A stretch of 64,000 nt of DNA, from the NCBI RefSeq assembly GCF_004300825.1, contig NZ_CP036250.1, positions 620,001-684,000 of the forward strand, given 5' to 3'. Positions 1 through 23,028 of this stretch are shown in pieces. The stretch's first letter is position 1. Each line of letters starts with the position of its first letter. The position numbers and the translations under genes are program-made. The notes beneath the pieces are model-generated. The model was not told the DNA's origin. It was given only the letters and a program-made list of their open reading frames with translations, and ran no database searches. The DNA is from Egicoccus halophilus. GTDB lineage: Bacteria; Actinomycetota; Nitriliruptoria; Nitriliruptorales; Nitriliruptoraceae.

Positions 1-1
1 T

Positions 2-745
2 CTCGCGGTGGCCAGCGTGTTCATCTACGTGGGCTCGCTGCGGGTGAGCGACATCGTCAACGCGCAGGCCGGCGACGGGCTGTGGGCCGGCATGCCCGGC
101 TGGTTCGTGGTCCCGCTGTTCCCGGCGTTCGTGGTCTTCCTCGTCGGCATGGTCGCCGAGGCCGGCCGCACCCCGTTCGACCTCGCCGAGGCCGAGGGGG
201 AGCTCGTCGGCGGGTTCGTCACCGAGTACTCGGCCCTGCGGTTCGGCCTGTTCATGATCGCGGAGTTCATGGGCGCGATCACCCAGTCGGCGATCATGGT
301 CACGCTGTTCTTCGGTGGCCCGAGCGGTCCGACGTTCGGGCTCGAGGGCACGGCGGCCGGTCTGCTCGGTTTCGTGTGGTTCGCGCTCAAGACGCTGTTC
401 TTCGTGTTCTTCTTCATCCTGCTGCGTGGTGCGCTGCCGCGCTACCGCTACGACAAGCTGATGGAGCTGGGCTGGAAGATCCTGATCCCGATCGCCCTGG
501 TGTGGACCATGGTCACGGCCGTGTTCGTGCTCCTCGCCGAGCAGGGCGGCCTGGCCACCGAGGCCCGTGTCGGCCTCGCCGTGGGTGCGGTCCTGATCCT
601 CGCCCTGCTGCTGTTCGTCCGCCCCAAGGGCGACGACGACGCACCGTCGGATCCCGCGTCCACCGACCGGTCACGCGACATCGACACGCCCGCCCACACC
701 GTGGCGCCGCCCGCGGACTCCACCACCACCGGGAGGAACGGCTGA
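2..745 (+). CDS. nuoH: NADH-quinone oxidoreductase subunit H, first cluster (5' truncated)
   Basis: C-terminal ~247 residues of the membrane subunit that links the quinone site to the proton-pumping arm of complex I. The start lies before the window. The signature loop [10 protein letters not shown] followed by [11 protein letters not shown] is visible near residue 60 of the fragment, with several transmembrane helices after it. The usual loop form is FDLPEAExEL, so the Pro is missing here. A hydrophilic, Asp/Thr/Ser-rich tail of about 35 residues ends the protein. The stop overlaps the nuoI start by one base (TGATG). Confidence 0.95.
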
Positions 746-1524
746 TGCCTGCCCCCCTCGTCACCCTGCTGTTCTTCGTCGTCATCGTCGCGCTGCTGGC
801 GCTGTTCCTCACCCAGACGCACTGGGGGCGCGGATTCCTCGTGCCGCTCAAGGCGATGGTCCGCAAGGCGGAGACGGCGCAGTACCCCGAGCAGCCCCGT
901 CCGGTCACGCCGCGCTTCCACGGGCGGCACCAGCTCAACCGATACGCGGACGGGCTGGAGAAGTGCATCGGCTGCGAGCTGTGCGCGTGGGCGTGTCCGG
1001 CGGATGCGATCTACGTCCAGGGCGCCGACAACACGCTCGAGGCCCGCTACTCGCCGGGTGAGCGCTTCGCCGACGACTATCAGATCAACTACAACCGCTG
1101 CATCCTGTGCGGCCTGTGCATCGAGGCGTGCCCGACCCGGGCGCTGACCATGACGCACGACTACGAGTTCTCGGCCGACACCCGCCGTGGGCTGATCTGG
1201 ACCAAGGAGAACCTGCTGGTCCCGGTCGCGCCCGGCGGCGAGGACACCCCGCACACCGACCGCGAGGTGCGTCAACGGGGGCTCAACTACTACGGTGGTC
1301 TGGCGGTCACGCCGCCCAACCTCCATGGTGGGCGTTTCGAGCCGGCGGCCAACGCACCGTCCGCTCGGGCCGGACAGGTCATCCCGTCGGGTGAGCTGCC
1401 CTCGACCAGCGAGGACCCGGTCGACTCGGCCATCGTCAGCCGTGCCAACTCCACCGACCCGTCGCGCCGCGACGGGGCGTCCGCGCCCAGCCAGGGCAAC
1501 ACCGACCCATGGGGGGAGCGCTAG
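745..1524 (+). CDS. nuoI: NADH-quinone oxidoreductase subunit I, first cluster
   Basis: Carries iron-sulfur clusters N6a and N6b, which pass electrons toward NuoB. Two CxxCxxCxxxCP motifs are visible at Cys 74/77/80/84 and 119/122/125/129 of 259 residues. The ATG overlaps the nuoH stop and a GGAGG lies about 10 bases upstream. Residues 5-22 form a strongly hydrophobic helix before the usual YPEQPRP segment. Most NuoI proteins begin with an amphipathic segment there, so this one may have an added membrane anchor. A Ser/Pro-rich tail follows the ferredoxin domain. Confidence 0.96.
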
Positions 1525-2322
1525 ATGTCCCTGCTTGCCCAGGCCGCCGACGGGGCGGCCGTCGGAGGCAGCACGGCCGAGGTCGTGTTGTTCTGGATCT
1601 TCGCGGTGATCGCGCTCGGCGCGGCCATCGGCGTGGTGACCATGCGCAACATCGTGCACGGCGCGTTGATGCTGGTGGTGAACCTGCTGGCCGTGGCCGG
1701 GCTCTACCTCGGCCTGGAATCGCCGTTCCTGTCGATCATCCAGGTGCTGGTCTACGCCGGCGCGATCATGGTCCTGTTCCTGTTCGTCATCATGCTGCTC
1801 GGCGTCGACCGCGACGACCTGCTGCTGGCGACCGACGTCCGTGCTCGGGTGTTGGCCGGTGCGGGCGGGGCGTTGTTGGCCGGCGCACTGCTGTTCGGCT
1901 TCGTCGGTCCCTACACCGGGGACGCATCGGTGTGTCCGCACGGTGAGGCGGTGGCCGCGCCGGCGACCGGCGACGGCGTGAGCTGCGTCGGACTGGCCCA
2001 GGCCAAGGACGCCGACGACGACGCCGGGGTGGCGCTGCTCGGCCGGCGCCTGTTCACCCGCTACACGTTGCCGTTCGAGCTCTCGGCGCTGTTGCTCACG
2101 GTCGCCACGATCGGCGCCGTGGTGATGGCGCGCCGCAAGGACCTGGCCCCCGACGACATCGAGGACCACGTCTTCTCCGACGCCGAGGTCCTCGCCCGCG
2201 GTGACCACCTCGGTGAGGAGGGTGCCGACGTCGGCGCTGCCGACCTGCGCGGCGAGCAGGCCGCCTTCGGGGAGCCGGACGCCTCCAGCACCCCACCCCT
2301 GCGCGACGAACGGGAGGGCTGA
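1525..2322 (+). CDS. nuoJ: NADH-quinone oxidoreductase subunit J, first cluster
   Basis: Membrane subunit of complex I, 265 residues, with five predicted membrane helices. The core motif VYAGAIMVLFLFVIMLLG near residues 75-92 is the conserved TM3 region with the pi-bulge. A loop around residues 130-165 holds two Cys and is rich in Ala and Asp. The C-terminal ~60 residues are hydrophilic and acidic. The ATG follows the nuoI TAG directly, so the two are translated from one message. Confidence 0.95.
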   Translation: MSLLAQAADGAAVGGSTAEVVLFWIFAVIALGAAIGVVTMRNIVHGALMLVVNLLAVAGLYLGLESPFLSIIQVLVYAGAIMVLFLFVIMLLGVDRDDLLLATDVRARVLAGAGGALLAGALLFGFVGPYTGDASVCPHGEAVAAPATGDGVSCVGLAQAKDADDDAGVALLGRRLFTRYTLPFELSALLLTVATIGAVVMARRKDLAPDDIEDHVFSDAEVLARGDHLGEEGADVGAADLRGEQAAFGEPDASSTPPLRDEREG

Positions 2323-2325
2323 GTC

Positions 2326-2625
2326 GTGGAGATCGGTTACTACTTCGCCCTGTCGGCGCTGCTGTTCTGCGTCGGGCTCGTGGGTGTGCTCATCCGGCGC
2401 AACGCCATCGTGCTGTTCATGTGCATCGAGCTGATGCTCAACGCCATCAACCTGACCCTGGCCGCCGCCGCCCGCATGTGGGGCGGCCCGGACGGGCAGG
2501 TCTTCGTCTTCTTCGTCATCGTCGTCGCCGCGGCGGAGGTGGTGGTCGGCCTCGCGCTGATCGTCAACCTCTTCTTCCGCCGCGGGACGGTCGACGTCGA
2601 CGTCCCCCAGCTGTTGAGGTACTGA
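2326..2625 (+). CDS. nuoK: NADH-quinone oxidoreductase subunit K, first cluster
   Basis: Small antiporter-like membrane subunit of 99 residues, the usual family length, with three membrane helices. The two membrane glutamates needed for proton transfer are present: Glu35 in [10 protein letters not shown] and Glu71 in [11 protein letters not shown] start, three bases after the nuoJ stop. Confidence 0.95.
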
Positions 2626-2626
2626 C

Positions 2627-4576
<1,950 letters not shown>

Positions 4577-4579
4577 GCG

Positions 4580-6085
4580 ATGGAACTCGGATCGATCACC
4601 CTGACCCTGGCGCTGCCGCTCTTCGGCGCGCTGGTCCTCGCCTTCGTCGCGGACGACCCGCGCGTGGTGCGCATCGTGGGGCTCGTCGCCTCCGCTGCCG
4701 CCTTCGTCGCGTCGCTGTTGATCCTCGTCGACTTCGACCTCGCCAACCCGGCGCTGCAGCTCGAGGAGCGCGTGAACTGGATCCCGGCGATCGGGGCGGA
4801 CTTCGCCCTGGCCGTCGACGGGGTCAGTCTCGCGCTCATCCTGCTGACCACGTTCCTGGTGCCGCTGATCCTGATCGCGTCCTTCGACAGCGTGAAGGTC
4901 AACCTCAAGGGGTACGTGGCGGCGTTCCTCGCGCTCGAGACGGCCGTGCTGGGCGTCTTCGCGGCGACCGACCTGCTGCTGTTCGCGGTGTTCTTCGAGT
5001 TCACCCTGATCCCGATGTACTTCATCATCGGCATCTGGGGTGGCGCCAAGCGCAAGTACGCCGCGGTCAAGTTCTTCCTGTACACCACGCTGGGCGGTCT
5101 GCTCATGCTGGTGGCGATCCTGTACCTGTACGCCCAGGCCGGCAGCTTCGACTACCAGGCGATCCGCGCCGTCGAGTTGACGGCCAACGAGCAGTACTGG
5201 CTCTTCGCCGCGTTCCTGCTCGCCTTCGCCATCAAGGTGCCGATCTTCCCGGTCCACACCTGGCTGCCCGACGCCCACACCGAGGCGCCGACCGGAGGCT
5301 CGGTGTTCCTGGCCGGCGTCCTGCTCAAGATGGGCACCTTCGGGCTGCTGCGCTACGCGCTGCCGCTGTTCCCCCAGGCCACGATCGACTGGGCCCCGGC
5401 GCTGCTGGTGGTCTCGGTGGTCGGCATCCTCTACGGCTCGGTCGTGGCGCTGATGCAGAAGGACATCAAGCGGTTGATCGCCTACTCGTCGGTGGCCCAC
5501 ATGGGCTTCGTGGTGCTGGGCACGTTCGCCCTCAACGCCACGGCGACCACGGCCTCGGTCGTGCAGATGGTCAACCACGGTCTGTCCACCGGCGCGCTGT
5601 TCCTGCTGATCGGCTTCCTCTACGAACGGCGTCACACCCGGCAGATCGCCGCGTTCGGCGGTCTGGCCAAGCGGGTGCCGATCATGGCCGGACTGTGGTT
5701 GCTCGTGTCGATGTCGTCGCTGGCCCTGCCGGGTCTCAACGGCTTCGTCGGGGAGTTCCCGATCCTGCTCGGCACGTTCCAGACGGCACGGTGGGCCGGT
5801 GTGCTCGCCGCGTTCGGTGCCGTCCTCGCCGCCCTCTACCTGCTCTGGGCCTACCAGCGGATGTTCCACGGTCCGCTCGTGGGTGCCGACAACGAGCACA
5901 CCACCGACCTCAAGCCCCGGGAGATCGGCGTCCTGGCTCCGCTCGTCGTGCTGATCGTCGGCATCGGCGTGTACCCGCAGCCGCTGTTCGACCTCGTCGA
6001 GCCCGCGGTCGACCGCGTGCTGACCGAGGTCGGCGTCGCCGACGCGCCGGCGGTCGAGCCGGCCGCCGCAGTCTCCGAGGAGTAG
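4580..6085 (+). CDS. nuoM: NADH-quinone oxidoreductase subunit M, first cluster
   Basis: Antiporter-like proton-pumping subunit, 501 residues. Key residues are Glu140 in FFEFTLIPMYF and Lys219 in FAIKVPIFPVHTWLPDAH. It starts three bases after nuoL and shares the message. The last ~25 residues are hydrophilic. Confidence 0.96.
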   Translation: MELGSITLTLALPLFGALVLAFVADDPRVVRIVGLVASAAAFVASLLILVDFDLANPALQLEERVNWIPAIGADFALAVDGVSLALILLTTFLVPLILIASFDSVKVNLKGYVAAFLALETAVLGVFAATDLLLFAVFFEFTLIPMYFIIGIWGGAKRKYAAVKFFLYTTLGGLLMLVAILYLYAQAGSFDYQAIRAVELTANEQYWLFAAFLLAFAIKVPIFPVHTWLPDAHTEAPTGGSVFLAGVLLKMGTFGLLRYALPLFPQATIDWAPALLVVSVVGILYGSVVALMQKDIKRLIAYSSVAHMGFVVLGTFALNATATTASVVQMVNHGLSTGALFLLIGFLYERRHTRQIAAFGGLAKRVPIMAGLWLLVSMSSLALPGLNGFVGEFPILLGTFQTARWAGVLAAFGAVLAALYLLWAYQRMFHGPLVGADNEHTTDLKPREIGVLAPLVVLIVGIGVYPQPLFDLVEPAVDRVLTEVGVADAPAVEPAAAVSEE

Positions 6086-6089
6086 GAGC

Positions 6090-7736
6090 GTGCCCGTGTT
6101 CCTCGCCCAGTCCACCATTGCCGACGGGCCGCAGATCGCCTGGTCGAGCTTCGCACCGGAGCTGGCGGTCGTCTGCGCCTCGCTGGTGCTCCTGCTGCTC
6201 GCCGTGGCCGGATCCCGTCGTCTGCTCGTCGGCATCGTCGCCGGCGTGCCCGCCATCGCCGCCGGTGTGTGGCTCGTCACCGAGGGCTTCGTGGTCCCCG
6301 GTGCCGTGACCATCGCGTTGGGGGCGGCCGCGCCGGCCCTGGTCGTCGCCTTCCCGGGCCGGCCCTCGCTCACCCAGTCGTGGGGTGCCGGACTGTCGCT
6401 GCTCGCGGCGCTGGTGCTCACCTTCTGGCAGTACGCCGAGGTCTTGGCGCCCGAGGGCGGGCTCATCGCGCCCCAGTCCGCGATGCAGGGCGCCCTGGCC
6501 AACGACGGCATCGGGTTCTTCACCCGCATCACCGTCTACCTGTCGGCCCTGTTGGTGATCCCGATCGGCTACGGCTACCTGCGCGACCGCCGGATCGGTC
6601 GCGCCGAGGTCGAGCCGCTGCTGCTGCTCAGTGTCGCCGGCATGGCGTTCCTCGGGACGGCCAACGACCTCATCACGCTGTTCATCAGCCTCGAGGTCCT
6701 GTCGATGGCGCTCTACATCCTCACCGGCCTGGCCCGGCGCGACCGCCGTTCGCAGGAGTCGTCGCTGAAGTACTTCATCCTCGGCTCGGTCGCCTCGGCG
6801 ATCCTGCTGTACGGGATGGCGCTGCTGTACGTGGCCACCGGCTCGCTCGACCTGCCCACCATCGGGGCGGGCCTGGGCCTGGTCACCACCCCGTCGGTCG
6901 TCGGCGCCCTCGGGCTCGCGCTGGTGACGGTCGGCATCGGCTTCAAGGTCGCGCTCGCCCCGTTCCACCTGTGGACGCCCGACGTCTACCAGGGCGCGCC
7001 CACCAACGTCACCGCGTTCATGGCCGCCGCCGTCAAGGCCGCCGGGTTCGCCGCACTGCTGCGGCTGTACCTGGTCGCGTTCCCGGCGCTCGAGCAGCTG
7101 TGGATCCCGGTGCTGAGCGTGCTGGCCGCGATCTCGATGCTCTACGGCGCCTGGGTCGCGATCGTCCAGCGCGACGTCAAGCGCATGCTGGCCTTCTCGT
7201 CGATCACCCATGCCGGCTACGCCACGATCGGGGTGGTGAGCAACTCCGACGCCGGCCTGTCGGCGACCCTGTGGTACCTGCTGACCTACGCGGTCGCGAC
7301 GCTGGGCGCCTTCGGGTGCGTGCTCGCCATCGAGCGGGTGCGTCGCGGTGAGGTGACCCTGGTCGACCTGCGGGGGTTGGGCAAGACCTCGCCACTGCTG
7401 GCGGGGATCTTCACCCTGTGCCTGCTGTCGTTGGCCGGGGTGCCGGCCACGGCCGGGTTCATCGGCAAGCTGGTGGTGTTCCAGGCCGGTGTCGCCGCCG
7501 GGCACACCTGGCTGGTCGTCATCGGCGTGCTGAGCTCGGTGATCGCCGCGTTCTTCTACCTGCGCCTGGCCGGCATGATGTTCCTGGAGGACGTCGAGGA
7601 GGGGCGCGCCATCCCGCTGGTCACGACCGGGCTCTCCGCCGGCGTGTACGCATCGGCCGTCCTGGTCCTGTTCCTCGGGATCTGGCCGCAGCTGCTGCTG
7701 CAGCTGTCCGAGTACGCCGCGGCTGTGGTTCGGTGA
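6090..7736 (+). CDS. nuoN: NADH-quinone oxidoreductase subunit N, first cluster
   Basis: Antiporter-like subunit, 548 residues, last gene of this nuo cluster. Glu202 in ISLEVLSMALYIL and Lys286 in GFKVALAPFHLWTPDVYQG mark the proton path. GTG start four bases after nuoM, with GGAG just upstream. The first ~60 residues form extra hydrophobic helices. The stop overlaps the next gene (GTGA). Confidence 0.96.
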   Translation: MPVFLAQSTIADGPQIAWSSFAPELAVVCASLVLLLLAVAGSRRLLVGIVAGVPAIAAGVWLVTEGFVVPGAVTIALGAAAPALVVAFPGRPSLTQSWGAGLSLLAALVLTFWQYAEVLAPEGGLIAPQSAMQGALANDGIGFFTRITVYLSALLVIPIGYGYLRDRRIGRAEVEPLLLLSVAGMAFLGTANDLITLFISLEVLSMALYILTGLARRDRRSQESSLKYFILGSVASAILLYGMALLYVATGSLDLPTIGAGLGLVTTPSVVGALGLALVTVGIGFKVALAPFHLWTPDVYQGAPTNVTAFMAAAVKAAGFAALLRLYLVAFPALEQLWIPVLSVLAAISMLYGAWVAIVQRDVKRMLAFSSITHAGYATIGVVSNSDAGLSATLWYLLTYAVATLGAFGCVLAIERVRRGEVTLVDLRGLGKTSPLLAGIFTLCLLSLAGVPATAGFIGKLVVFQAGVAAGHTWLVVIGVLSSVIAAFFYLRLAGMMFLEDVEEGRAIPLVTTGLSAGVYASAVLVLFLGIWPQLLLQLSEYAAAVVR

Positions 7737-10351: not shown

Positions 10352-10735
10352 GTGAGCTTCACCGAGCAGTACGGCGCCTTCGCGATCCTCGTGATCGTCG
10401 GCTGCGCGCTGTACGCGATCATCATGCTCGGAAGCCGATTGGTGCGTCCGACCGTTCCCTCACCGCTGAAGCTGACGACCTACGAGTGCGGTGTCGAGGC
10501 GGTCGGGACCGGCTGGTCCCAGATGAACATCCGCTACTACGTCTTCGCGTTCCTGTTCGTCATCTTCGACGTCGAGGCGATCTTCCTGTTCCCGTGGGCG
10601 CTGGTCATCGGTGACCTCGACGGGACCACGACTCCCTCGGCGTTGTTCGCCCTCGTCGCGATGTTCCTGTTCATCGCCACGCTGCTCGAGGGCCTGATGT
10701 ACGCCTGGAAGAAGGGGGTACTGCAATGGGACTGA
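10352..10735 (+). CDS. nuoA: NADH-quinone oxidoreductase subunit A, second cluster
   Basis: Small membrane subunit of 127 residues with three helices. The [20 protein letters not shown] loop, which carries the conserved Cys near the quinone cavity, and [11 protein letters not shown] are both present. GTG start with AGGAGG about 8 bases upstream. First gene of an 11-gene cluster; its end overlaps nuoB. Confidence 0.95.
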
Positions 10736-11277
10736 TCGACCAGGTCGAGCTCCCCAAGCCCGTCAAGTACGTCTTCAACTGGGGCCGCAAGTACTCGCTG
10801 TGGTGCTTCAACTTCGGTCTCGCGTGCTGCGCGATCGAGTTCATCGCGGCCTCGGGCTCCCGGCACGACTTCATCCGCCTCGGCGTGATCCCGTTCGCCC
10901 ACGCGCCCCGTCAGGCCGACCTGCTGGTCGTGTCGGGAACGCTGACCGACAAGATGGCCCCGGCGCTGCGCCGGCTCTACGAACAGATGCCCGAGCCGAA
11001 GTACGTGGTCTCGTTCGGTAGCTGCTCCAACTGCGGCGGCCCGTACTGGGACAGCTACTCGGTCACCAAGGGCGTCGACCAGATCCTGCCCGTCGACGTG
11101 TACGTCCCGGGATGTCCTCCCCGTCCGGAAGCCCTGCTGGACGGCATCGTGGCACTGCAGGACCGCATCCAGGGCGAGAGCGTCAAGGACCGCATGGCCC
11201 AGCGTCGACGTGACCCCATCGTGATCCGCTCCGAGGGGCCCGACGTGGCACCCGAGCTCCAGACCGCGGAGGGCTGA
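10726..11277 (+). CDS. nuoB: NADH-quinone oxidoreductase subunit B, second cluster
   Basis: Holds the terminal iron-sulfur cluster N2 that reduces quinone. The N2 ligands are visible as adjacent Cys34-Cys35, Cys100 and Cys130 of 183 residues. An additional Cys103 lies in [11 protein letters not shown]. The ATG lies inside the end of nuoA (10-base overlap). Confidence 0.95.
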
Positions 11278-11284
11278 GGTCACC

Positions 11285-12736
11285 GTGACGGACGTCCTGG
11301 CACGCAGGGATCGGGCGCTCAGCCCGGAGGAGACCGCCGAGCTGGTCCGGGTGCGGGCCGGTGACGCGGCCGTGGTCGGCTCCACCGTCGAGTACGGCAC
11401 CTTCACGCTGTACGTCGCCAACGAGCACTTCGCCGAGGTGGCCCGCGTCTGCCGGGACGAGCGGGTCCTCGCCTACGACTTCTTCGACTGCCTGTTCGGG
11501 ATCGACGCGCGTGACGAGGGCTTCGACATCGTCGCGATCCTGTACTCGACCTCGACCGGCAACCGGGTGGCGTTGCGCACCCGGTGCCCCGGCGGACGCG
11601 AGACGCCGACCTGTCCCTCGCTGACCGCGGTCTACCGCGGGGCGAACTGGCACGAACGTGAGGCCTGGGACATGTTCGGCATCGAGTTCCCGGACCATCC
11701 GGGGCTCGAGCCGCGCATCTTCACCATCGAGACCTTCGAGGGCTGGCCGCTGCGCAAGGACTTCCCGCTCGCGTCGCGGGTGGCCAAGCCCTGGCCGGGG
11801 GTGAAGGAGCCGGCCGAGCTCGACGAGGACGGCAACGTCATCGAGCGCCAGCCGCAGCTCGGCGACGCGCCCGGTCCCTACGAGCTCGACAAGGCGATGG
11901 CCGAACAGGCCAAGCTCGCCAACCCACAACCGGTGTCCGATCCCGCCACCCGCGAGGGCGAGGAGGTCGAGGACGCGCTCGGCGGTGCGGCCGAGCTCGC
12001 GCCCGACAGTGGTGCGGTGCTCGCGGGCGACGCCGAGCACTCCCAGGAGCAGCACGAGGACGTCAAGTCCGAGGCCCGGGTGCGGGCCGAGGCCAAGCGC
12101 AAGTCCGCCGCCGAGGCCCGAGCCCGCAAGGCGGCCGAGCGTGCGGCCGCCGCCACGGGGACCGAGGCGGCCGAGGCCGCCGGTGGTGCGGTCGCGCCCG
12201 GGGAGGACCAGTTCCCGGAGTCGGCGACGGCCGAGGCGAACGCCGACGCGCCACCGGTGAGCGCCGGGCAGCCGGAGGCCACCAGCTGGGGCAACGAGGC
12301 CGACGCCCACGGCACCGAGGGTCCGGTGCCCGGCTCGCGCGGGCAGGACGAGCCGAGCGCGCCGGGTGACGAGGCCGTCGCCGGCGAGCCGGCCGGTCGC
12401 AACGGCGAGCCGACCCGGGCGGGTGAGACCTCCGGCGCACCGGCCACGTCGGCCGACAGCCCGGCCACGCCGGTCGCGCCCGGCGCGACGTTCCCCGGCG
12501 AGGACGCCGACGCCGATCCCGCCGATCCCGCCGACGCCGACGCGCCGTACCAGGGCGCGGGAGCCAGCGAGGACCTCGCCGAGCGCGAGGGCGAGGAGGC
12601 CGCGGGGACCGGCGGCGCCGTCGCGGACGCGCTCGGCGGGACCGAGGAGCACGCCGACGCCCCGGGTTCGTCGGACGCGGTCGGCGACGACCGCGGCGAC
12701 CGGGACGGCACCGACGACGGGGAGGAGCGCGCATGA
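11285..12736 (+). CDS. nuoC: NADH-quinone oxidoreductase subunit C with a very long acidic tail, second cluster
   Basis: Structural subunit of the peripheral arm that contacts NuoB and NuoD. The family core lies in residues 1-~190, with WHEREAWDMFGIEFPDHPG and GWPLRKDFPL. NuoC is usually about 200 residues, but this protein has 483. Residues ~195-483 form a low-complexity tail rich in Ala, Glu, Asp, Gly and Pro, with a Lys/Arg/Ala/Glu stretch near 260-290 that could form a helix. The tail is in frame with no stop and ends in an ATGA overlap with nuoD, so it is truly part of the gene. Confidence 0.93.
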   Translation: MTDVLARRDRALSPEETAELVRVRAGDAAVVGSTVEYGTFTLYVANEHFAEVARVCRDERVLAYDFFDCLFGIDARDEGFDIVAILYSTSTGNRVALRTRCPGGRETPTCPSLTAVYRGANWHEREAWDMFGIEFPDHPGLEPRIFTIETFEGWPLRKDFPLASRVAKPWPGVKEPAELDEDGNVIERQPQLGDAPGPYELDKAMAEQAKLANPQPVSDPATREGEEVEDALGGAAELAPDSGAVLAGDAEHSQEQHEDVKSEARVRAEAKRKSAAEARARKAAERAAAATGTEAAEAAGGAVAPGEDQFPESATAEANADAPPVSAGQPEATSWGNEADAHGTEGPVPGSRGQDEPSAPGDEAVAGEPAGRNGEPTRAGETSGAPATSADSPATPVAPGATFPGEDADADPADPADADAPYQGAGASEDLAEREGEEAAGTGGAVADALGGTEEHADAPGSSDAVGDDRGDRDGTDDGEERA

Positions 12737-13920
12737 GCGTCAGTGACCTCAGCGCCAAGCAGACCATCCACCCGGCGAGCGCCCCGGGGGAGAGCCTCAA
12801 CCTCGAGATCGTCGGGGACGGCGCGTTCACGACCGCCGACATGACGCTGTCGGTGGGACCGGCGCACCCGGCCACGCACGGGGTGCTGCGGGTCGTGCTC
12901 GAGATGGACGGCGAGCGCGTGAAGTCCGCGCACCCGGTGATCGGGTACATGCACCGCGGGTTCGAGAAGCTCGCCGAGCACCGCGACTTCCGTCAGAACG
13001 CCGCGCTGGTCAACCGGCACGACTGGTTGTCGGGCATGTCCAACGAGATCGGACTGATGCTCACCGTCGAGCGCATGCTCGAGATGGAGGTGCCCGAGCG
13101 GGCGCAGTGGATCCGCATGCTGATGGCGGAGTACAACCGGATCCTCAACCACCTGCTGTTCGTCGGCTCCTACGGCCTCGAGCTCGGCGCCATCACGCCG
13201 ATGTTCTACGCCACCCGCGAACGCGAGCGCATCCAGTACCTGCTCGAGTCGGCGACCGGCGGCCGGCTGCACTACACCTACAACCAGCCGGGCGGGGTGA
13301 AGATCGATCTGCCCAAGGGGTTCCTGCACCAGTCGGTCGAGTTGGTCGCCGACGTCAGGAAGCGTCTGCGCGACTTCGACGACCTGCTGTTGGGCAACGA
13401 GATCTTCCAGGCCAGGACCAAGGGGGTCGGGCCGCTGTCGACCGACGTGGCGCTGTCCTACGGCGTGTCGGGGCCGACCCTGCAGGCGACCGGTATCCCC
13501 GAGGACGTGCGGGTCTCGGAGCCCTATCTCAAGTACGACGAGGTCGAGGTCCCGGTGCCGGTCGGGGAGAACGGCGACAGCTGGGACCGCTTCTACTGCC
13601 TGCTCGGCCGGATGAAGGCCTCCTGCCACATCATCGAGCAGATCCACGACCACCTGCCTCCGGGGCCGGTCAACGTGAAGCTGCCCAAGATGGTCAAGGC
13701 CCCCGAGGGCGCCACCTACGCCCGCGTGGAGAACCCACTCGGATCGCTGGGCTACTGGTTGGAGTCCGACGGCGGTCGCACACCGTGGCGGCTGAAGATG
13801 CGCACCGCGTCGTTCTCCAACGTGCAGGTGCTGCCGTACCTGCTCGAGGGGGTGCTCGTGCCCGACGCCATCAGCGTCCTGGGCTCGGTCTTCTTCGTCG
13901 TGGGAGACGTCGACCGATGA
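12733..13920 (+). CDS. nuoD: NADH-quinone oxidoreductase subunit D, second cluster
   Basis: Forms the quinone-reduction site with NuoB. 395 residues, normal length. HPATHGVLR at 45-53 includes the quinone-binding His. At the position of the quinone-binding Tyr (Tyr108 of bovine NDUFS2, in a DRLDY motif) this protein reads NRHDWLSG, placing Trp98 there. The rest of the family pattern is intact, including RAQWIRMLMAEYNRILNH, the GGRLHYTYNQPGGV segment and the C-terminal VFFVVGDVDR. Confidence 0.95.
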   Translation: MSVSDLSAKQTIHPASAPGESLNLEIVGDGAFTTADMTLSVGPAHPATHGVLRVVLEMDGERVKSAHPVIGYMHRGFEKLAEHRDFRQNAALVNRHDWLSGMSNEIGLMLTVERMLEMEVPERAQWIRMLMAEYNRILNHLLFVGSYGLELGAITPMFYATRERERIQYLLESATGGRLHYTYNQPGGVKIDLPKGFLHQSVELVADVRKRLRDFDDLLLGNEIFQARTKGVGPLSTDVALSYGVSGPTLQATGIPEDVRVSEPYLKYDEVEVPVPVGENGDSWDRFYCLLGRMKASCHIIEQIHDHLPPGPVNVKLPKMVKAPEGATYARVENPLGSLGYWLESDGGRTPWRLKMRTASFSNVQVLPYLLEGVLVPDAISVLGSVFFVVGDVDR

Positions 13921-13960: not shown

Positions 13961-15067
13961 ATGATCGAGGCGTTCACCGTCGTCTCGCGTGGCTTCGTCG
14001 CGCAGACGCCCGGCCTGCTCGACACCGACACGTTCCTGCTCTCGGTGGCCCTCAAGGTCGCGCTCGTGCTCGGCCTGTTCTTCGTCGTGCCGCTCGCGGT
14101 CGGCTACATGGAGCACAAGGCGATGGCCCGCCTGCAGCACCGGCGCGGACCGATGTTCGCCGGTCCGGCCGGCTCGCTGCAGCTCGTCGCCGACGGCATC
14201 AAGTTCCTCCAGAAGGAGGACGTGATCCCGCGGGCGGCGGACAAGCACGTCTTCGCGCTCGCTCCCGGCCTCGCGCTCGTGCCCGCCATCCTGATCTTCT
14301 TCGTGCTGCCGCTCGCGCCGGGCGTGTGGGCCGCCGACCTCGAGCTCGGGCTGTTCTACGCGCTGGCGATCACGTCGATCTCCGTGCTCGGCGTGATGAT
14401 GGGCGGTTGGGCGAGCGCCAACAAGTTCTCGCTCTACGGCGGGTTGCGCGCCGCGGCGCAGCTGATCGCCTACGAGCTGCCGCTGATCCTGGCGGCGATC
14501 GCGGTCGCCGTGCAGGCCGGCAGCCTGTCGCTGGTGGGCATCGTCGAGTCGCAGGCGAACTTCCTGCTGCCGGGCACGAACATCAACGTGTGGTTCGTCT
14601 TCCCGCAGCTGCTCGGCTTCGGCATCTTCTTCCTCGCGGCCCTGGCCGAGCTGTCGCGGCCGCCGTTCGACATGCCGATCGCCGACTCCGAGCTCGTGTT
14701 CGGCTACATGACCGAGTACACGGGCATCAAGTTCGCGATGTACCTGCTCACCGAGTACGCCGGCATGGTGTCGATGTCGGCGTTGATGGTGGTGCTCTAC
14801 CTCGGGGGCTGGCAGCTGCTGCCGGGGGTGCCGCTGCCCGGCTGCGAGGGCGCCGGCGGCCTGTTCGACTGCGGCGTGCTCGGCACGCTGCTCGGGCTGG
14901 GTGTCACGCTCGGCAAGATCGTGCTGCTGACCTTCGTGATGGTGTGGGCCCGGGTGGCCTACCCGCGGTTGCGCGAGGACCAGCTGCAGCGCATGTCCTG
15001 GCTGGTGCTCGTGCCCCTGTCGCTGCTCAACCTCGCGATCGTCGCGGTCGCCAAGGTGGTGTTCTGA
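13961..15067 (+). CDS. nuoH: NADH-quinone oxidoreductase subunit H, second cluster
   Basis: Membrane subunit joining the quinone cavity to the pump modules, 368 residues. The motifs [19 protein letters not shown] and [16 protein letters not shown] are present. The usual loop is FDLPEAExEL, so one Glu is Ile240 and another is Asp242. ATG start with GGAGG upstream in a 40-base gap after nuoD. The cluster goes straight from nuoD to nuoH, with no nuoE, nuoF or nuoG. Confidence 0.95.
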
Positions 15068-16359
15068 TGGCAACGACCTCCGTACCGGGTGTCGGGCTGC
15101 TCAAGGGGCTCGGCGTCACGCTCAAGCACCTGTTCAAGACCCCCGCGACGCAGCTGTACCCGGACGTGCGGCCCGACCTGCCGCCACGCGCCCGGGGCGT
15201 CATCGCCCTGATGGAGGAGAACTGCACCGTCTGCATGCTCTGCAGCCGGGAGTGCCCCGACTGGTGCATCTACATCGACTCGCACAAGGAGACGGTGCCC
15301 CCCGCCAAGGAGGGGGGCCGGGCGCGCACCCGCAACGTGCTCGACCGGTTCGCCATCGACTTCGCGCTGTGCATGTACTGCGGCATCTGCGTCGAGGTGT
15401 GTCCCTTCGACGCGCTGTTCTGGTCCCCGGAGTTCGAGTACGCCGAGTACCAGATGCCGGGGCTGCTGCACGAGAAGACCAAGCTGCGGGAGTGGATGGA
15501 CACCGTCCCGCCGCCGCCGGCGCTCGACGCCGGTGCCGAGGTCCCGGCCGAGGTCGCCGACGCGATCGCCAAGGCCGAGCGCGAGCTCGAGCAGGCCCAG
15601 CAGGCGGCCCAGCAGGCGGCACAGCAGGCCGAGCAGGCGGCGTCGGCCGCGGCGAGCCCGTCCGCGGGCGTCGCCAAGGCCGATGAACCGAAGGTCGAGG
15701 CCGGCGAGATCGACCAGGAGACCTACGACCAGCTGATCGCCGAGGGCAAGTCCGAGCGCATCGCGCGGTCCAAGGCCAAGGCGGCCTACGTCAAGAAGCA
15801 GAAGGCCAAGCTCCGCGAGCAGCAGGCGGCCGCCGGGGACGATGGCGGCGCGGCCGGGTCCCAGCCGGCGCCCAAGCCGGCGGAGGTGCACGTCGAGGCC
15901 GGCCAGATCGACCAGGAGACCTACGACCAGCTCATCGCCGAGGGCAAGCCGGAGCGGATGGCGCGGGCCAAGGCCAAGGCCGCCTGGGTGAAGAAGGAGA
16001 AGGCCCGGCTGCGCGCGGAGCAGGAAGACCGCGCCCAGCAGGCGGCGGCCGGCGGCGACGCCGCTCAGGTGGACACACCGGCCGCCGAGCCCGCTGATCG
16101 CACCGGTGAACCCGTCGGCGGCGCAGGTCCGGCGACCGACGCTGCCGCTCCCACCGACGCGCAGGGCGAAGCGGCTGCCACCACGCCTCGCAAGAAGCTC
16201 GGTGACGTCCACGTCGAGGGTGCCGGGGAGATCGACCAGGAGACCTACGACCGCCTGATCGCCGAGGGCAAGTCCGACCGCATCGCGCGGGCGAAGGCGA
16301 AGGCCGCATGGGTGAAGAAGCGCAAGCAGGAGCAGCTCGACGCGGGAGACGAGGCATGA
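15067..16359 (+). CDS. nuoI: NADH-quinone oxidoreductase subunit I with a triple-repeat tail, second cluster
   Basis: Two-[4Fe-4S] ferredoxin subunit. Ligand Cys are at 53/56/59/63 and 102/105/108/112. The family core ends near residue 150, but the protein has 430 residues. Residues ~160-205 form an Ala/Gln/Glu coiled-coil-like stretch. Three copies of a ~36-residue unit follow, at 213-248, 279-314 and 387-422. Each has the core IDQETYD(Q/R)LIAEGK followed by a Lys/Ala/Arg-rich helix ending in VKK, and acidic linkers separate them. The ATG overlaps the nuoH stop (TGATG). The tail's function is unknown. Confidence 0.94.
15703..16332 (+). repeat. Three coding repeats in NuoI2 (15703-15810, 15901-16008, 16225-16332)
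   Basis: Three 108-base units, each encoding about 36 residues and nearly identical in protein sequence. They are spaced 90 and 216 bases apart. The pattern is G(E/Q)IDQETYD, then LIAEGK, then a basic helix with AR.KAKAA. They are in frame inside nuoI and have no direct-repeat and spacer structure of a CRISPR array. Confidence 0.9.
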
Positions 16360-16381: not shown

Positions 16382-16999
16382 GTGACGGGATACGACGTCG
16401 TCTTCGCCCTCGTGGGGCTGGTGACCGCGGGCGCGGCGATCCTGACGGTCACCTCGAAGAACCTGGTCCACGCGGCCCTGCACCTGGCGGTCACCCTGGC
16501 CGGCATCGCCGGGGTGTTCCTGGTCCTGCACGCCGACTTCCTGGCGCTGGTCCAGCTCATCGTCTACGTCGGGGCCGTGACGGTCCTGTTCCTGTTCGGT
16601 CTGATGCTCACGCGGGCGCCGATCGGTCGGGAGGCGCTCGACAGCCAGAACCGCGGGCTGGGTCTGGCGGTGGCGGGGGGTCTGTTCGTGACGCTGGCGG
16701 CCCTGATCGTGCAGGCCTACGCCGGCCACCCCAGCGTGCTGCCCCAGCGGATCCCCACCGAGGCGATCGGCATGGTGATCTTCTCGCAGTGGGTGCTGCC
16801 GTTCGAGGTGCTCTCGATGCTGCTGCTCGCCGCGCTGATCGGGGCGATCGTGCTCGCCCGACGCGAGGCCGGTGACTCCGGCGACACCGTCGACCAGACG
16901 CGCATCGAGTTCGGCGACGCCCCGTCGACCGAGCAGGGCCGCGCCGCGACCGAGCCGGTCGAGCTCGGCGCCGGCGAGTCCGGGAGCGAGTCCCGATGA
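16382..16999 (+). CDS. nuoJ: NADH-quinone oxidoreductase subunit J, second cluster
   Basis: Membrane subunit, 205 residues. [16 protein letters not shown] near 60-75 is the TM3 signature. GTG start with GGAGGG upstream, 22 bases after nuoI. The last ~40 residues are hydrophilic and acidic. The end overlaps nuoK by four bases. Confidence 0.94.
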
Positions 17000-17307
17000 G
17001 CCCCATCGGCCCGCTGCTGCTGGCGACGCTGCTGTTCTGCGTCGGCGTCTACGGGATCATCGCCCGCCGCAACGCCGTGCTCGTGCTGATGAGCGTCGAG
17101 CTGATGCTCAACGCGGTGAACATCAACCTCGTCGCGTTCCAGAACCTGCTGTGGCCGGAAACGGCGTTCGTGAGCGGGCAGCTGTTCGCGTTGTTCATCA
17201 TCGCGGTCGCGGCGGCCGAGGTCGGCGTCGGGCTGGCCATCCTGTTCAACCTGTTCCGCAACCGTGCGTCGGTCAACGTCGACGACGTCGACCTGATGCG
17301 CTGGTAG
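16996..17307 (+). CDS. nuoK: NADH-quinone oxidoreductase subunit K, second cluster
   Basis: Three-helix membrane subunit, 103 residues. Membrane glutamates Glu35 ([10 protein letters not shown]) and Glu75 (AAAEVGVG) are kept, as expected of an active proton pump. ATGA overlap with nuoJ. Confidence 0.95.
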
Positions 17308-17318
17308 GGGGCACACTC

Positions 17319-19856
17319 GTGGAATCTGTCCTGGACCTGGCGTGGCTGGTCGTCCTGCTGCCGTTCGCCTCGGCCGTGCTGACGGCGTTCTTCGGCCGGC
17401 TGATGCCGCTGCGCGGCAGCGAGTTCGGCATCGCCGCCGTCGGCATCGCGCTGGTGATCTCGCTGCTGATCGCCTGGGAGACCTTCTCCACCGGTGTCGG
17501 CGAACCGCTGGAGCGTGCCTTCGCGTGGTCGCCGCTCGGCGGCGGGTTCGTGCTCGAGCTGGGCATGCTCGTCGACGGCCTGACCTCCATGATGTTCGTG
17601 CTGGTCACCACGGTGTCGCTGCTGGTCCACGTCTACTCGCGCGAGTACATGGCGCACGAGCCGCGCTTCACCTACTTCTTCGCGATGCTGAGCCTGTTCA
17701 CCTTCTCCATGCTGGTGCTGGTGATCGCCAACAACACGCTGCAGGCACTGCTGGGTTGGGAACTGGTCGGTCTGTGCAGCTTCCTGCTGATCGGCTTCTA
17801 CTGGGAGGAGAAGTCCAACCAGGACGCGGCGAACAAGGCCTTCCTGGTCACCAAGTTCGGTGACGTCGGCCTGATCGTGGGCGTCATCGTGCTGTCGGTG
17901 CCCATGTTCACCCTCGCCGAGGGCGGCCAGGTCTTCAACATCCGCCTGCTCAACGAGGCGGCCGTGAACGGCGAGCTCGGGTCGGGCACGGTGGTGCTCG
18001 GCATGTTGATGATCTTCCTGGCCTGCATCTCGAAGTCGGGGCAGATGCCGCTGCACGTGTGGCTGCCCGACGCCATGGCCGGTCCGACCCCGGTGTCGGC
18101 CCTGATCCACGCTGCCACGATGGTGACCGCCGGCGTGTTCCTGCTCGCCCGCCTGTACCCGGTGCTGGCGCAGTCGGCGGTCGTGATGACCGTCATCGCC
18201 GTGGTCGGCATCGTCACGCTGTTCTTCGGGGGGCTGGTCGCGCTCGTCCAGGACGACATCAAGAAGGTGCTGGCCTACTCGACGGTGTCCCAGCTCGGGT
18301 ACATGGTCGCTGCGCTCGGTGTGGGCGGCTACACCGCCGGCATCTTCCACCTGTTCACCCACGGGTTCTTCAAGGCGCTGCTCTTCCTCGGTTCGGGGTC
18401 GTTGATCCACGCGGTGCACAGCAACAACATGTCCGACATGGGCGGCATGCGGAAGTACATGCCGCACACGTTCTGGACCTTCATCGTCGGCTCGCTCGCG
18501 TTGGCCGGGTTCCCGATGACCGCCGGGTTCTTCTCCAAGGACGAGATCCTGGTGTCCGGACAGATCTGGGCCGGCAACGGCTTCGTCACCGGCGACCTCG
18601 TGTTCTGGGTCGGGCTCGCGGCGGCGTTCGTGACCACCTTCTACATGGCGCGTGCCTGCCTGCTGATCTTCGCCGGCGAGTTCCGTGGCGGCCACGACAC
18701 CCACGGCGACCCGGACGTCCGGCACCAGGCGGCCGGGTCGGCCGGCGTCGACCCCGTGCTCGCCGGCCACGGCGTGACGGTGGACGCCGCCCACGCGCAG
18801 GACGACGACCGGGCCGCCGACGACGCCGTCACCGTGGTGGCCGGTGGCCACGCGCCTGCGGCCCAGGGCGCCGGTTCCCACGACGCCGGGCACGCCACGT
18901 CCGGGGACGCCGCGTCCGGGACCGCGACGTCCGGGACCGACCGGGACGCCTCCGACGCCGGGTCGCACGCGGTCGGTGCGGGTGTCGCCGCACACGGCGC
19001 CGGCTCGCACGCGATGGGCGGCGGGCACGGGACCGACGACCACGGCGCCCACGGCGCCCACGCCGAACCGCACGAGTCGGGCCTGCAGATGGTCCTCCCG
19101 CTGATCATCCTCGCCGTGCTCTCGCTCACGGTCGGCCTGATCGGCTCACCGCTGTGGACGGCCGAGAACAACTTCGAGACCTGGACCGCGACACCGGTCC
19201 TCGAGGAGGCCACCTATCCCTTCGTCGAGGGTGGCTACCACGACGACGAGGTCGACCACGCCGAAGCGGGCGCGGTCGGGACCCCGGGGGGGAGCACCGG
19301 TGCACTGCGCGGCGCGGGGGTCCTGGCCGCCGGGCCCGACGTGCTCGCGGCCGCCGAGGGGGCGCACCCGGAGGTCCTGCACGGGCCACCGTCGTGGCAC
19401 CTCGACGTGCTCGGGCTCGCCCTGCTGGCGTTCCTGTCCGCGGTCGCGCTGGCCTGGAAGTTCTACGGGCAGGGGCAACCGGCCGAGGACCCGACGTTCA
19501 AGATGGGAGCGCTGACGAAGGTGCTGGTCGCCAAGTACGGCCTCGACACGTTCGGCTACCGCTACGTGGTCGTGCCGGTGCGTGACCAGCTCGCCGTCTG
19601 GGCCTCGCGCAGCAGCAACGAGGGTCTCGACCGCATCGTGGCCGGGGTGGGCGCCGCCACGCGGGCGGCCGCCACGTCGACCTACGAGGTCCTCGACCAG
19701 CGCGTCATCGACGGCGGCGTCAACGGCGCGGCCCTCAGCGCGGCGTGGTGGAGCGACCGCCTCAAGCGGCTGCAGTCGGGTGACGTGCAGCGCTACGCCG
19801 GCGCGATCGTCGCCGGCACGATCGTCCTGGTGCTCGCCTTCGCGGTGGCCCGGTAG
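17319..19856 (+). CDS. nuoL: NADH-quinone oxidoreductase subunit L with a His-rich insertion, second cluster
   Basis: Antiporter-like proton-pumping subunit. Glu148 (GWELVGLCSFLL) and Lys239 (KSGQMPLHVWLPD) are present. The protein has 845 residues against the usual 600-650. Residues ~460-584 are a soluble insertion rich in His, Ala, Gly and Asp, with about 16 His, between late membrane helices where relatives have a short His-containing loop. A second loose segment lies at ~620-690. GTG start 11 bases after nuoK. The final lateral-helix region and the terminal membrane helix are intact. Confidence 0.93.
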   Translation: MESVLDLAWLVVLLPFASAVLTAFFGRLMPLRGSEFGIAAVGIALVISLLIAWETFSTGVGEPLERAFAWSPLGGGFVLELGMLVDGLTSMMFVLVTTVSLLVHVYSREYMAHEPRFTYFFAMLSLFTFSMLVLVIANNTLQALLGWELVGLCSFLLIGFYWEEKSNQDAANKAFLVTKFGDVGLIVGVIVLSVPMFTLAEGGQVFNIRLLNEAAVNGELGSGTVVLGMLMIFLACISKSGQMPLHVWLPDAMAGPTPVSALIHAATMVTAGVFLLARLYPVLAQSAVVMTVIAVVGIVTLFFGGLVALVQDDIKKVLAYSTVSQLGYMVAALGVGGYTAGIFHLFTHGFFKALLFLGSGSLIHAVHSNNMSDMGGMRKYMPHTFWTFIVGSLALAGFPMTAGFFSKDEILVSGQIWAGNGFVTGDLVFWVGLAAAFVTTFYMARACLLIFAGEFRGGHDTHGDPDVRHQAAGSAGVDPVLAGHGVTVDAAHAQDDDRAADDAVTVVAGGHAPAAQGAGSHDAGHATSGDAASGTATSGTDRDASDAGSHAVGAGVAAHGAGSHAMGGGHGTDDHGAHGAHAEPHESGLQMVLPLIILAVLSLTVGLIGSPLWTAENNFETWTATPVLEEATYPFVEGGYHDDEVDHAEAGAVGTPGGSTGALRGAGVLAAGPDVLAAAEGAHPEVLHGPPSWHLDVLGLALLAFLSAVALAWKFYGQGQPAEDPTFKMGALTKVLVAKYGLDTFGYRYVVVPVRDQLAVWASRSSNEGLDRIVAGVGAATRAAATSTYEVLDQRVIDGGVNGAALSAAWWSDRLKRLQSGDVQRYAGAIVAGTIVLVLAFAVAR

Positions 19857-19961: not shown

Positions 19962-21500
19962 ATGGACCCGCAGACCGCAGGTTGGGCACTGATCGTCGCC
20001 CTGTTCCTGCCCCTGGCCGGGGCAGGACTGCTGGCGCTGATGCCCGCCCGGTTGGACCGCGAGATCCGTTGGGCGGGGGTCGGGATCACCGCCGTCGCCT
20101 TCGCCCTCGTCGTCGCGATCACCGCGGCGTTCGACTTCGGCGCGTCCGGTGAGCTGCAGTTCCAGACCGATGTCAGCTGGATCGGCGCGATCAACGCCAA
20201 CTTCCACGTCGCGCTCGACGGCATCAGCCTGCCGCTGTTCTTCCTGACCTATCTGCTGCCGCTGCTGTGTGCGATCTACACCACCCGCATCCTGCCCGCA
20301 CCGGGACGCCCCAAGGCGTTCCTCGGCCTGATGCTGCTGCTGCAGACCGGGATGGCCGGCACGTTCGTCGCCTTCGACCTGATCCTGTTCTTCGTCTTCT
20401 GGGAGCTCGTGCTCGTCCCGATGTTCTTCCTGATCGGGATGTGGGGCGGTCCGCGCCGCGAGTACGCCAGCGTCAAGTTCTTCCTCTACACGCTGTTCGG
20501 CTCGATCTTCATGCTGGTCGCCTTCCTCGCGATCTATTTCCAGGGCGGGGCGACGACCTGGGACATCCAGGCGCTGTCCGCCGCGGGCGGCGTCGGCGGG
20601 GTCACCTTCCAGACGTGGGCGTTCGCCGGCATCTTCCTCGGCTTCGCCATCAAGGTGCCGATGTGGCCGTTCCACACCTGGCTCCCCGACGCGCACACCG
20701 AGGCGCCGACGGTCGGCTCGGTGCTGTTGGCCGGCGTGCTGCTGAAGATGGGCACCTACGGGTTCATCCGCATCGCCCTGCCGATCCTGCCCGAGGGTGC
20801 GATGCGTTTCGCCCCCATCATCGGGGTGCTGGCCGTCATCGGCATCATCTACGGCTCGCTGTGCTGCCTGGCCCAGACCGACGTCAAGCGACTCATCGCG
20901 TTCTCGTCGGTGGGGCACATGGGCTTCGTGATGCTGGGGATCGCCGCCATGAACGAGGCGGGCATCCAGGCCGCCCTGTTCGGCAACATCGCCCACGGGG
21001 TGGTGACCGGCATGCTGTTCTTCCTCGCCGGGTCCCTGCACGAGCGCTACCACACCCGCGAGATCGCCGAGATCGGCGGCGGCATGTTCACCAAGATCCC
21101 CCGCTACGGGGTGCTGCTGACCTACGTCGCGGTCGCGTCCCTGGGGCTGCCGGGTCTGGCCGGGTTCTGGGGAGAGTTCACCGCCATGTGGGCGGCGATC
21201 AGTCCCGGCGGCGGGCTCGCCGACACCTACGGCGGCCTCTACCTGGCGTTGGTCGTCGTCGCCGCCATCGGGACCGTGCTGACCGCCGGCTACTTCCTGT
21301 GGCTGCTGCAGCGCATGAACCTCGGTCGTCCCACCGCCCGCTGGGCCGACGAGCCGCTGCAGGACGTCATGCGGGTCGAGTGGGTGTCGTGGATGCCGCT
21401 GCTGGTGCTGATCCTGGCGCTGGGCGTCTACCCGCGCCTGGTGTTCGGGGTGCAGGACGCGGCGGTGAACAACCTGATGGGCTGGGTGCTCGGGGGCTGA
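19962..21500 (+). CDS. nuoM: NADH-quinone oxidoreductase subunit M, second cluster
   Basis: Antiporter-like subunit, 512 residues. Glu148 (FWELVLVPMFFLIGMW) and Lys231 (FAIKVPMWPFHTWLPDAH) are in place. ATG start with GGAGG upstream. The 105-base gap after nuoL is the widest between nuoH2 and nuoN2; I see no promoter in it. Confidence 0.95.
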   Translation: MDPQTAGWALIVALFLPLAGAGLLALMPARLDREIRWAGVGITAVAFALVVAITAAFDFGASGELQFQTDVSWIGAINANFHVALDGISLPLFFLTYLLPLLCAIYTTRILPAPGRPKAFLGLMLLLQTGMAGTFVAFDLILFFVFWELVLVPMFFLIGMWGGPRREYASVKFFLYTLFGSIFMLVAFLAIYFQGGATTWDIQALSAAGGVGGVTFQTWAFAGIFLGFAIKVPMWPFHTWLPDAHTEAPTVGSVLLAGVLLKMGTYGFIRIALPILPEGAMRFAPIIGVLAVIGIIYGSLCCLAQTDVKRLIAFSSVGHMGFVMLGIAAMNEAGIQAALFGNIAHGVVTGMLFFLAGSLHERYHTREIAEIGGGMFTKIPRYGVLLTYVAVASLGLPGLAGFWGEFTAMWAAISPGGGLADTYGGLYLALVVVAAIGTVLTAGYFLWLLQRMNLGRPTARWADEPLQDVMRVEWVSWMPLLVLILALGVYPRLVFGVQDAAVNNLMGWVLGG

Positions 21501-21561: not shown

Positions 21562-23028
21562 ATGGCCATCGACTTCTTCGCGATCGCTCCCGAGATCGCG
21601 CTGACGGTCACGGCGCTGGTCGTGCTGGCGGCCGACCTCGCACTGCGCGGCGAGGCCAAGCAGCTGGTCAACCCGCTGGCGTCCCTCGGCACGCTCGTGG
21701 CGATCGGCTTCACGGTGGCGCTGTGGGGTCAGCAGCGCACCACCTTCGGCGGCACGTTCGTGGTCAACGAGTTCGCCCTGGTGTTCAAGCTGGTGTTCCT
21801 CGGCAGCCTGCTCGCGATCCTGGGCATCAGCTGGCGCTACTTCGCCGAGGGGCGCTACTTCCAGGGCGAGTACTACTTCCTGCTGCTGACCTCCTTCCTG
21901 GGCATGCTGCTGATGCCCTCGGCCCGCGACCTCATCCTGCTGTTCATCGCGCTCGAGACCGTGTCGGTCCCGGCGTTCGTGATGGCCGGGTTGCGCAAGC
22001 GGGACCTGTACAGCTCCGAGGCGGCGCTCAAGTTCTTCCTCATCGGGGTGTTGTCGGTCGCCCTGATGCTGTTCGGCATGTCGATGGTGTACGGCTTCAC
22101 CGGCACCACGGCGTTGGCCGGCATCGCCGAGGCGATCGCCGGGGACGCCGAGCTCACCCCGCTGCTGCTCGCCTCCGTGATGCTCATCTTCGTCGGCTTC
22201 GCGTTCAAGATCTCCGCGGTCCCGTTCCACTTCTGGGCCCCCGACACCTACGCCGGTGCGCCGATGCCCGTCGCGGCGATGCTGGCCGTGGCCTCCAAGG
22301 CGGCCGGGTTCGCCGGCCTGCTCGTCATCGCCTTCGTCGCGTTCGAGCCGGTCGCCGACGTGTGGGCCCCGGTGCTCGGGGTGCTGGCGATCCTGACGAT
22401 GACGATCGGCAACCTCGTCGCCCTGCAGCAGCGCGACCTGGTCCGGCTGCTCGCCTACTCCTCGGTGGCGCAGGCCGGCTACATGCTGATCCCGTTCGGG
22501 CTCGCCCGTCCCGGGGGTGCCGAGGTCAACGACGCCGCCGTGCAGGCGGTGGTCTTCTACCTGGTCGCCTATGCGGTGATGAACATCGGCGCGTTCGGCG
22601 TGGCCATCGCGGTCAACCGCCGCACCGGCCTGCGCTCGTTGGCCGACTACGCCGGTCTGGCGTCGCGCAGCCCGATGCTCGCCCTGGCGATGACGGTGTT
22701 CCTGCTCAGTCTCGGTGGCGCACCGCCGACCGTCGGGCTGTGGGCCAAGTTCGCCATCATCGAGGCCGCGCTGGTCGAGGTCAGCGTCTTCGGCATCGTG
22801 CTGATGGTGTTCCTGGCCATCAACTCGGTGATCGCGTTCTTCTACTACCTGCGCATCGTCAAGGCGATGTGGATGGACACGGCCCGCGAGGGTCTGCCCG
22901 TGCTCCAGCCCGGATTCCAGCTGTCGCTGGTGGTGCTCGTGCTCATGGCCGGCACCGTCCTGCTCGGCGTCCTGCCCGGCCTGGTCACCGACTACTCCGC
23001 CGTCACCGGTTTCCTCGCCGCCAACTGA
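21562..23028 (+). CDS. nuoN: NADH-quinone oxidoreductase subunit N, second cluster
   Basis: Last subunit gene of the second complex I cluster, 488 residues. Glu132 (IALETVSVPAF) and Lys216 (FAFKISAVPFHFWAPDTYAG) are present. ATG start after a 61-base gap. It is shorter at the N-terminus than the copy in the first cluster. Confidence 0.95.
   Translation: MAIDFFAIAPEIALTVTALVVLAADLALRGEAKQLVNPLASLGTLVAIGFTVALWGQQRTTFGGTFVVNEFALVFKLVFLGSLLAILGISWRYFAEGRYFQGEYYFLLLTSFLGMLLMPSARDLILLFIALETVSVPAFVMAGLRKRDLYSSEAALKFFLIGVLSVALMLFGMSMVYGFTGTTALAGIAEAIAGDAELTPLLLASVMLIFVGFAFKISAVPFHFWAPDTYAGAPMPVAAMLAVASKAAGFAGLLVIAFVAFEPVADVWAPVLGVLAILTMTIGNLVALQQRDLVRLLAYSSVAQAGYMLIPFGLARPGGAEVNDAAVQAVVFYLVAYAVMNIGAFGVAIAVNRRTGLRSLADYAGLASRSPMLALAMTVFLLSLGGAPPTVGLWAKFAIIEAALVEVSVFGIVLMVFLAINSVIAFFYYLRIVKAMWMDTAREGLPVLQPGFQLSLVVLVLMAGTVLLGVLPGLVTDYSAVTGFLAAN

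Follow-up and report, generated by a model that had tools for sequence, protein, structure and literature searches.

The nuo2 gene cluster of Egicoccus halophilus encodes a NuoD subunit, NuoD2, in which tryptophan occupies the position of the quinone-binding tyrosine of complex I. In the Actinomycetota clade that shares it, this residue, Trp98, is an old exception that has become fixed at a catalytic position regarded as invariant. The cluster lies within the window, that is, the whole 64,000-nucleotide stretch analysed here (contig positions 620001–684000), in a genome consisting of a single contig of 3.98 Mb. In our judgement, the balance tips slightly towards NuoD2 being the quinone-site subunit of a working 11-subunit complex I that lacks the NADH module, in which tyrosine was replaced by tryptophan once and the replacement became fixed.

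Residue 98 and the quinone site of NuoD2

The Trp98 codon reads TGG within an ATG-started reading frame (context ALVNRHDWLSGMSNE). A phmmer comparison with PDB chains pairs residues 33–326 of NuoD2 with residues 22–315 of Thermus Nqo4, a block of 294 residues with zero gaps. Counted on this alignment, W98 corresponds to Tyr87, H49 to His38, and E150 to Asp139, and the mitochondrial chains in the output align in the same manner. The predicted structure of NuoD2, a single-chain model without quinone (mean pLDDT 85, pTM 0.85), has W98 opening helix 98–115. Residues 35–395 of this model superpose on residues 45–430 of the bovine and ovine 49-kDa subunits (Z 48, rmsd 1.6–1.7 Å). The numbering there is shifted by 10, so that W98 of the predicted structure falls at residue 108. 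The quinone-bound mycobacterial chain is matched equally closely (Z 48.3). Alignment error at W98 is ruled out by the gap-free block and the agreeing superposition. An earlier note on this DNA had assigned Trp98 to the quinone-tyrosine position and described the histidine motif HPATHG as retained, and both statements hold.

NuoD2 belongs to the NuoD family despite Trp98, as homology, fold, and cluster context demonstrate. The protein exceeds the cut-off of PF00346 and scores 401.8 bits against NF004739 (cut-off 360); its 399.6 bits against TIGR01962 lie below the stricter cut-off of that model (459). The fold is shared with NuoD, Nqo4, and NDUFS2 from Mycobacterium (8e9g/8e9h), Thermus, and bovine sources over 354–359 residues at Z 48, and the HPATHG loop, the conserved Arg95, and the surrounding helix are common to all of them. 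The Trp clade departs from these proteins at Tyr87, which becomes Trp98, and at Asp139, which becomes Glu or, in one branch, Gln. Among the residues that characterize NuoD, the histidine of the beta1-beta2 loop (Thermus His38) is present as H49, and H45 and H49 are both found in 119 of 119 clade members; the quinone tyrosine is absent. This tyrosine is a mark of the typical catalytic site and not of the NuoD family as such. The large subunit of MBS and membrane-bound [NiFe] hydrogenases is homologous to NuoD2, but NuoD2 lacks the [NiFe]-hydrogenase cysteine ligands, with RHDW instead of RxCGxC, whereas three hydrogenase-type loci carry the Gly/Cys motif ERVCGICS.

Beyond the earlier note, the acid that pairs with His38 is altered as well, from Asp139 in Thermus to Glu150 here. 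Position 150 in the Trp clade is Glu in 97 proteins, Gln in 21, and Pro in one, and never Asp. Because Glu also occurs at this position in 37 Tyr-type proteins, Glu150 is not special to the clade. Gln150, unlike Glu150, is distinctive: in this branch (21 proteins), the phenol and the acid that partners His38 in the proposed trigger are both gone, and His49 is kept. Another Actinomycetota NuoD branch, represented by six loci, keeps Tyr and has Asn at the Asp139 position. The positions fixed differently between nuo2 and nuo1 include M73, N94, W98, and F388 of NuoD and I55, P56, P106, D109, and K115 of NuoB. Most of these nuo2-specific positions are not common to four Tyr-type clusters of the 11-subunit type.

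The nuo2 cluster and its electron donor side

The nuo2 genes follow the order A-B-C-D-H-I-J-K-L-M-N (Table 1), and no nuoE, nuoF, or nuoG lies between nuoD2 and nuoH2 in the window. This gene content, nuoA to nuoD plus nuoH to nuoN, is that of an 11-subunit complex I. Residues associated with function are retained outside NuoD2 as well: NuoB2 keeps its N2 cysteines, and the buried acids of the proton channels are preserved in NuoA2 (FDVE) and NuoK2 (two Glu). The neighbouring nuo1 cluster encodes a 14-subunit-type NuoD, NuoD1, with the motif TRMDY and hence the normal Tyr; its gene lies upstream of the window, at a distance of about 6 kb. The D and H genes of nuo1 are separated by 6 kb, room for nuoE, nuoF, and nuoG, and NuoF was found there. 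A polyprenyl synthetase, a uracil-DNA glycosylase-type gene, and an acetyltransferase lie between nuo1 and nuo2.

Table 1. Features of the nuo1 end and the nuo2 cluster, with positions in the window
Feature	Position	Strand	Description	Basis
nuo1 end	1..7736	+	end of H1, then I1, J1, K1, L1, M1, N1	
nuoA2	10352..10735	+		
nuoB2	10726..11277	+	cluster N2 subunit, four Cys ligands kept	
nuoC2	11285..12736	+	long low-complexity C-terminal tail past ~residue 165	
nuoD2	12733..13920	+	49-kDa-type subunit, 395 aa	family matches, predicted structure
HPATHG loop of NuoD2	12865..12882	+	H45 and H49 (Thermus His34, His38), both kept	
Trp98 codon of NuoD2	13024..13026	+	TGG, equivalent to Tyr87 of Thermus Nqo4 and Tyr108 of bovine NDUFS2	
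Codon 150 of NuoD2	13180..13182	+	Glu versus Thermus Asp139 (ion-pair partner of His38)	
nuoH2	13961..15067	+	quinone-tunnel subunit, TM5-6 loop PIADSELV	
nuoI2	15067..16359	+	two 4Fe-4S motifs and C-terminal tail with three ~51-residue repeats	
nuoJ2	16382..16999	+		
nuoK2	16996..17307	+	both buried Glu kept	
nuoL2	17301..19856	+		
nuoM2	19962..21500	+		
nuoN2	21562..23028	+		

Several subunits display unusual extensions or motifs. NuoC2 carries an acidic, Ala/Pro-rich low-complexity tail of ~300 residues after its 30-kDa domain. The repeat units of NuoI2 follow the iron-sulfur domain (window positions 15674–16348), and the same ~51-residue unit recurs in NuoI2 tails at many Nitriliruptoria loci and, likewise at many loci of this class, just upstream of nuoD2 in the NuoC2 tail region. 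It is possible that this unit acts as a docking element. In NuoH2, the TM5-6 loop differs from the acid-rich PEAE-type loop of most complexes, and the ERR/ERK motif reads EHK.

Ferredoxin or another low-potential carrier probably donates the electrons to nuo2. This proposal draws on the missing N-module, on the presence of KorAB genes in the genome (2 Mb from nuo2), and on the association of KOR with NuoD2 in the phylum: KOR was present in 111 of 127 NuoD2-bearing Actinomycetota genomes and in 102 of 269 without NuoD2 (Fisher p 9e-22, with kinship among the genomes ignored). A ferredoxin donor has also been proposed for the 11-subunit enzyme of Desulfitobacterium (PMC11238625). Beside nuo2, at the 27–30 kb where ferredoxin oxidoreductase genes were expected, none was found; this interval holds a heparinase-like ORF and a frame without Pfam match. 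Many NuoF matches across the phylum score below the cut-off of the model and are probably subunits of hydrogenases or formate dehydrogenases.

Distribution and origin of the tryptophan

Among 252 distinct NuoD-type proteins, the site is occupied by Trp in 119, Tyr in 130, and Gly in three. All 119 Trp proteins form one clade of Actinomycetota NuoD2, with identity to the window protein down to ~39%. A mutation confined to one genome and a sequencing error are ruled out by this invariance. Tyr is present in 130 of 130 other quinone-type NuoDs, including those of 11-subunit-type clusters, of other phyla, and of the nearest sister branch. Relatives of the same class that possess NuoD2 read NRHDW in all 30 loci examined. 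Across the phylum sample, a close NuoD2 occurs in 127 of 396 genomes, and the sequences read from these all carry Trp, those of Streptomyces-like genomes included. A further 40 Actinomycetota sequences, of intermediate similarity or from previously unsampled groups, have Trp within the clade and Tyr outside it. Surveys of other phyla covered three groups of records, known by their titles (Dehalococcoidia, Elusimicrobia, Campylobacteraceae), and returned only Tyr in quinone-type and Gly in hydrogenase-type proteins. The exception consists of Actinomycetota-type genes in probably mixed bins. Two public MAGs titled Dehalococcoidia (L058) and Acidobacteria (L065) contain nuo2 clusters clearly of Actinomycetota type, and the match coordinates in L065 are identical to those of an Actinomycetota genome; both are probably mis-named or mixed bins.

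Phylogenetic placement was assessed with quick maximum-likelihood trees, computed without bootstrap and rooted on the hydrogenase-type rows. With the column of the codon removed, 39 Trp representatives (<80% identical) group as one clade (SH-aLRT 100) and a single change accounts for them. When the 40 further sequences are included and the column is retained, all 48 Trp rows form one clade (SH-aLRT 99), and the three nearest sister loci have Tyr. The direction of change, from Tyr to Trp, follows from the hydrogenase-type root. These trees show a single origin of Trp98 in an old Actinomycetota clade, followed by fixation, and its invariance down to 39–46% identity argues for strong purifying selection.

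Members of the Trp clade are typically encoded in 11-subunit clusters (A-D, H-N). The arrangement A-B-C-D-H-(I)-J-K-L-M-N without an E-F-G gap occurs in this genome and in most checked neighbourhoods of distant families. The earlier note had asked whether other 11-subunit clusters also have Trp fixed in their NuoD2, and within Actinomycetota they do. Elsewhere, four clusters resemble nuo2 in having the order A-B-C-D-H-J-K-L without an E-F-G gap but differ from it in carrying Tyr at the site in four of four. Since such Tyr-type clusters exist, the absence of NuoEFG does not require Trp. In five neighbourhoods, some of them Streptomyces-like, nuoD2 stands alone, far from other nuo genes, and keeps its Trp. 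The Streptomyces nuo2 genes have been described (PMC3765725, PMC8388888), and Streptomyces-like NuoD2 falls in the Trp clade by sequence; in Streptomyces, unlike here, nuoD2 is separated from the rest of the nuo2 genes.

Function of the Trp-type complex

In structures and simulations of complex I, the quinone is hydrogen-bonded to Tyr87 and His38, both possible proton donors, and the charge left behind on Tyr87/His38, or a freed Asp139, has been proposed to start pumping (PMC7434922, PMC5938582, PMC8119997). One review calls the quinone Tyr 'strictly conserved' (PMC8119997). A search of openly accessible literature found no paper describing a natural Trp at this site, nor did it yield biochemical data for a Trp-clade complex. 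Yarrowia mutants of this tyrosine, studied by Tocilescu in 2010, are reportedly crippled in their activity with decylubiquinone, which weighs against a working Trp-type enzyme. The review cites that study for head-group binding (PMC8119997).

Given the tyrosine contact in known structures, Trp98 likely changes the contact with the quinone head group, as the earlier note had supposed. Its further suggestion of a changed redox partner finds no support as an effect of Trp98, because it is the absence of NuoEFG that determines the electron donor side and because the Tyr-type complex I of the same cell should share the quinone pool. Adaptation to a different quinone species is disfavoured by the same companion, NuoD1 with Tyr in this genome.

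Other readings of the substitution were weighed. The indole may plug the deep head-group site, so that quinone is reduced at a shallower point in the tunnel or the acceptor is not quinone. Trp is larger than Tyr, several quinone positions along the complex I tunnel are known (PMC8119997), and clade-wide differences from nuo1 lie nearby (I55, P56, and P106 of NuoB2 and the NuoH2 loop described above). Moreover, the sulfane reductase MBS operates without equivalents of His38 and Tyr87 (PMC7684303). However, NuoD2 keeps both histidines, and the retention of His49, the residue lost in MBS, in every clade member suggests a deep site that is still functional; the nuo2 membrane subunits are all quinone-type, and no gene for a different acceptor was seen among the nuo2 genes. 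We regard such a plug as unlikely. A more improbable scenario casts NuoD2 as an alternative subunit that can enter mixed complexes alongside other nuo parts, with Trp tuning that use. The five solitary nuoD2 genes and the Streptomyces reports, in which nuoD2 is separate and subunit exchange was proposed for nuoL2/M2 (PMC3765725, PMC8388888), speak for it, although here and in most checked lineages nuoD2 is accompanied by its own B2, C2, and H2 in a complete cluster of 11 genes.

Slightly less probable still is that a nearby tyrosine has taken over the role of the phenol, a possibility that would have undermined the earlier note. The best candidate, Tyr147, precedes E150 by three residues and is thus a single helical turn away from where Asp139 sits. 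Within the Trp clade, however, 55 of 119 proteins have Tyr at position 147, 44 have Phe, and 20 have Met, Leu, Ile, or Thr; Tyr147 also occurs in 23 Tyr-type proteins and does not covary with Trp98, and no other clade-fixed gained Tyr is apparent in NuoD. Weakened constraint or a gene copy in decay, as might be imagined for a second copy beside a complete nuo1, is effectively refuted by Trp in 119 of 119 proteins over many families of one phylum, by open frames, and by the retention of the other catalytic residues.

Returning to the working 11-subunit enzyme, nuo2 most likely encodes an N-module-less menaquinone reductase with indole in place of phenol, to which a low-potential carrier, probably ferredoxin, would deliver electrons. 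The complex would still reduce menaquinone and pump protons. Trp98 could hold the quinone head group by stacking and through its indole N-H. An indole N-H is a hydrogen-bond donor and not a proton donor, as its pKa lies far above the physiological range. Trp98 would consequently give no proton, and protonation would rely on His49 and water, with the second proton coming from His49, water, or another route. More tentatively, and at less than an even chance, these proteins may represent a natural lineage of pumping complex I without the proton-giving Tyr, one branch of which (the 21 Gln150 proteins) also lacks the acid paired with His.

The Trp clade corrects the description of the quinone tyrosine as strictly conserved. 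Here and in many relatives it shares the cell with a Tyr-type complex, which offers a natural comparison for models of Tyr87/His38 coupling, and Trp98 predicts altered sensitivity to deep-site inhibitors. If pumping without the tyrosine is true, neither the chemistry of the quinone nor its coupling to the pump would need a charge trigger from Tyr or the His-Asp pair, on which several current models are based.
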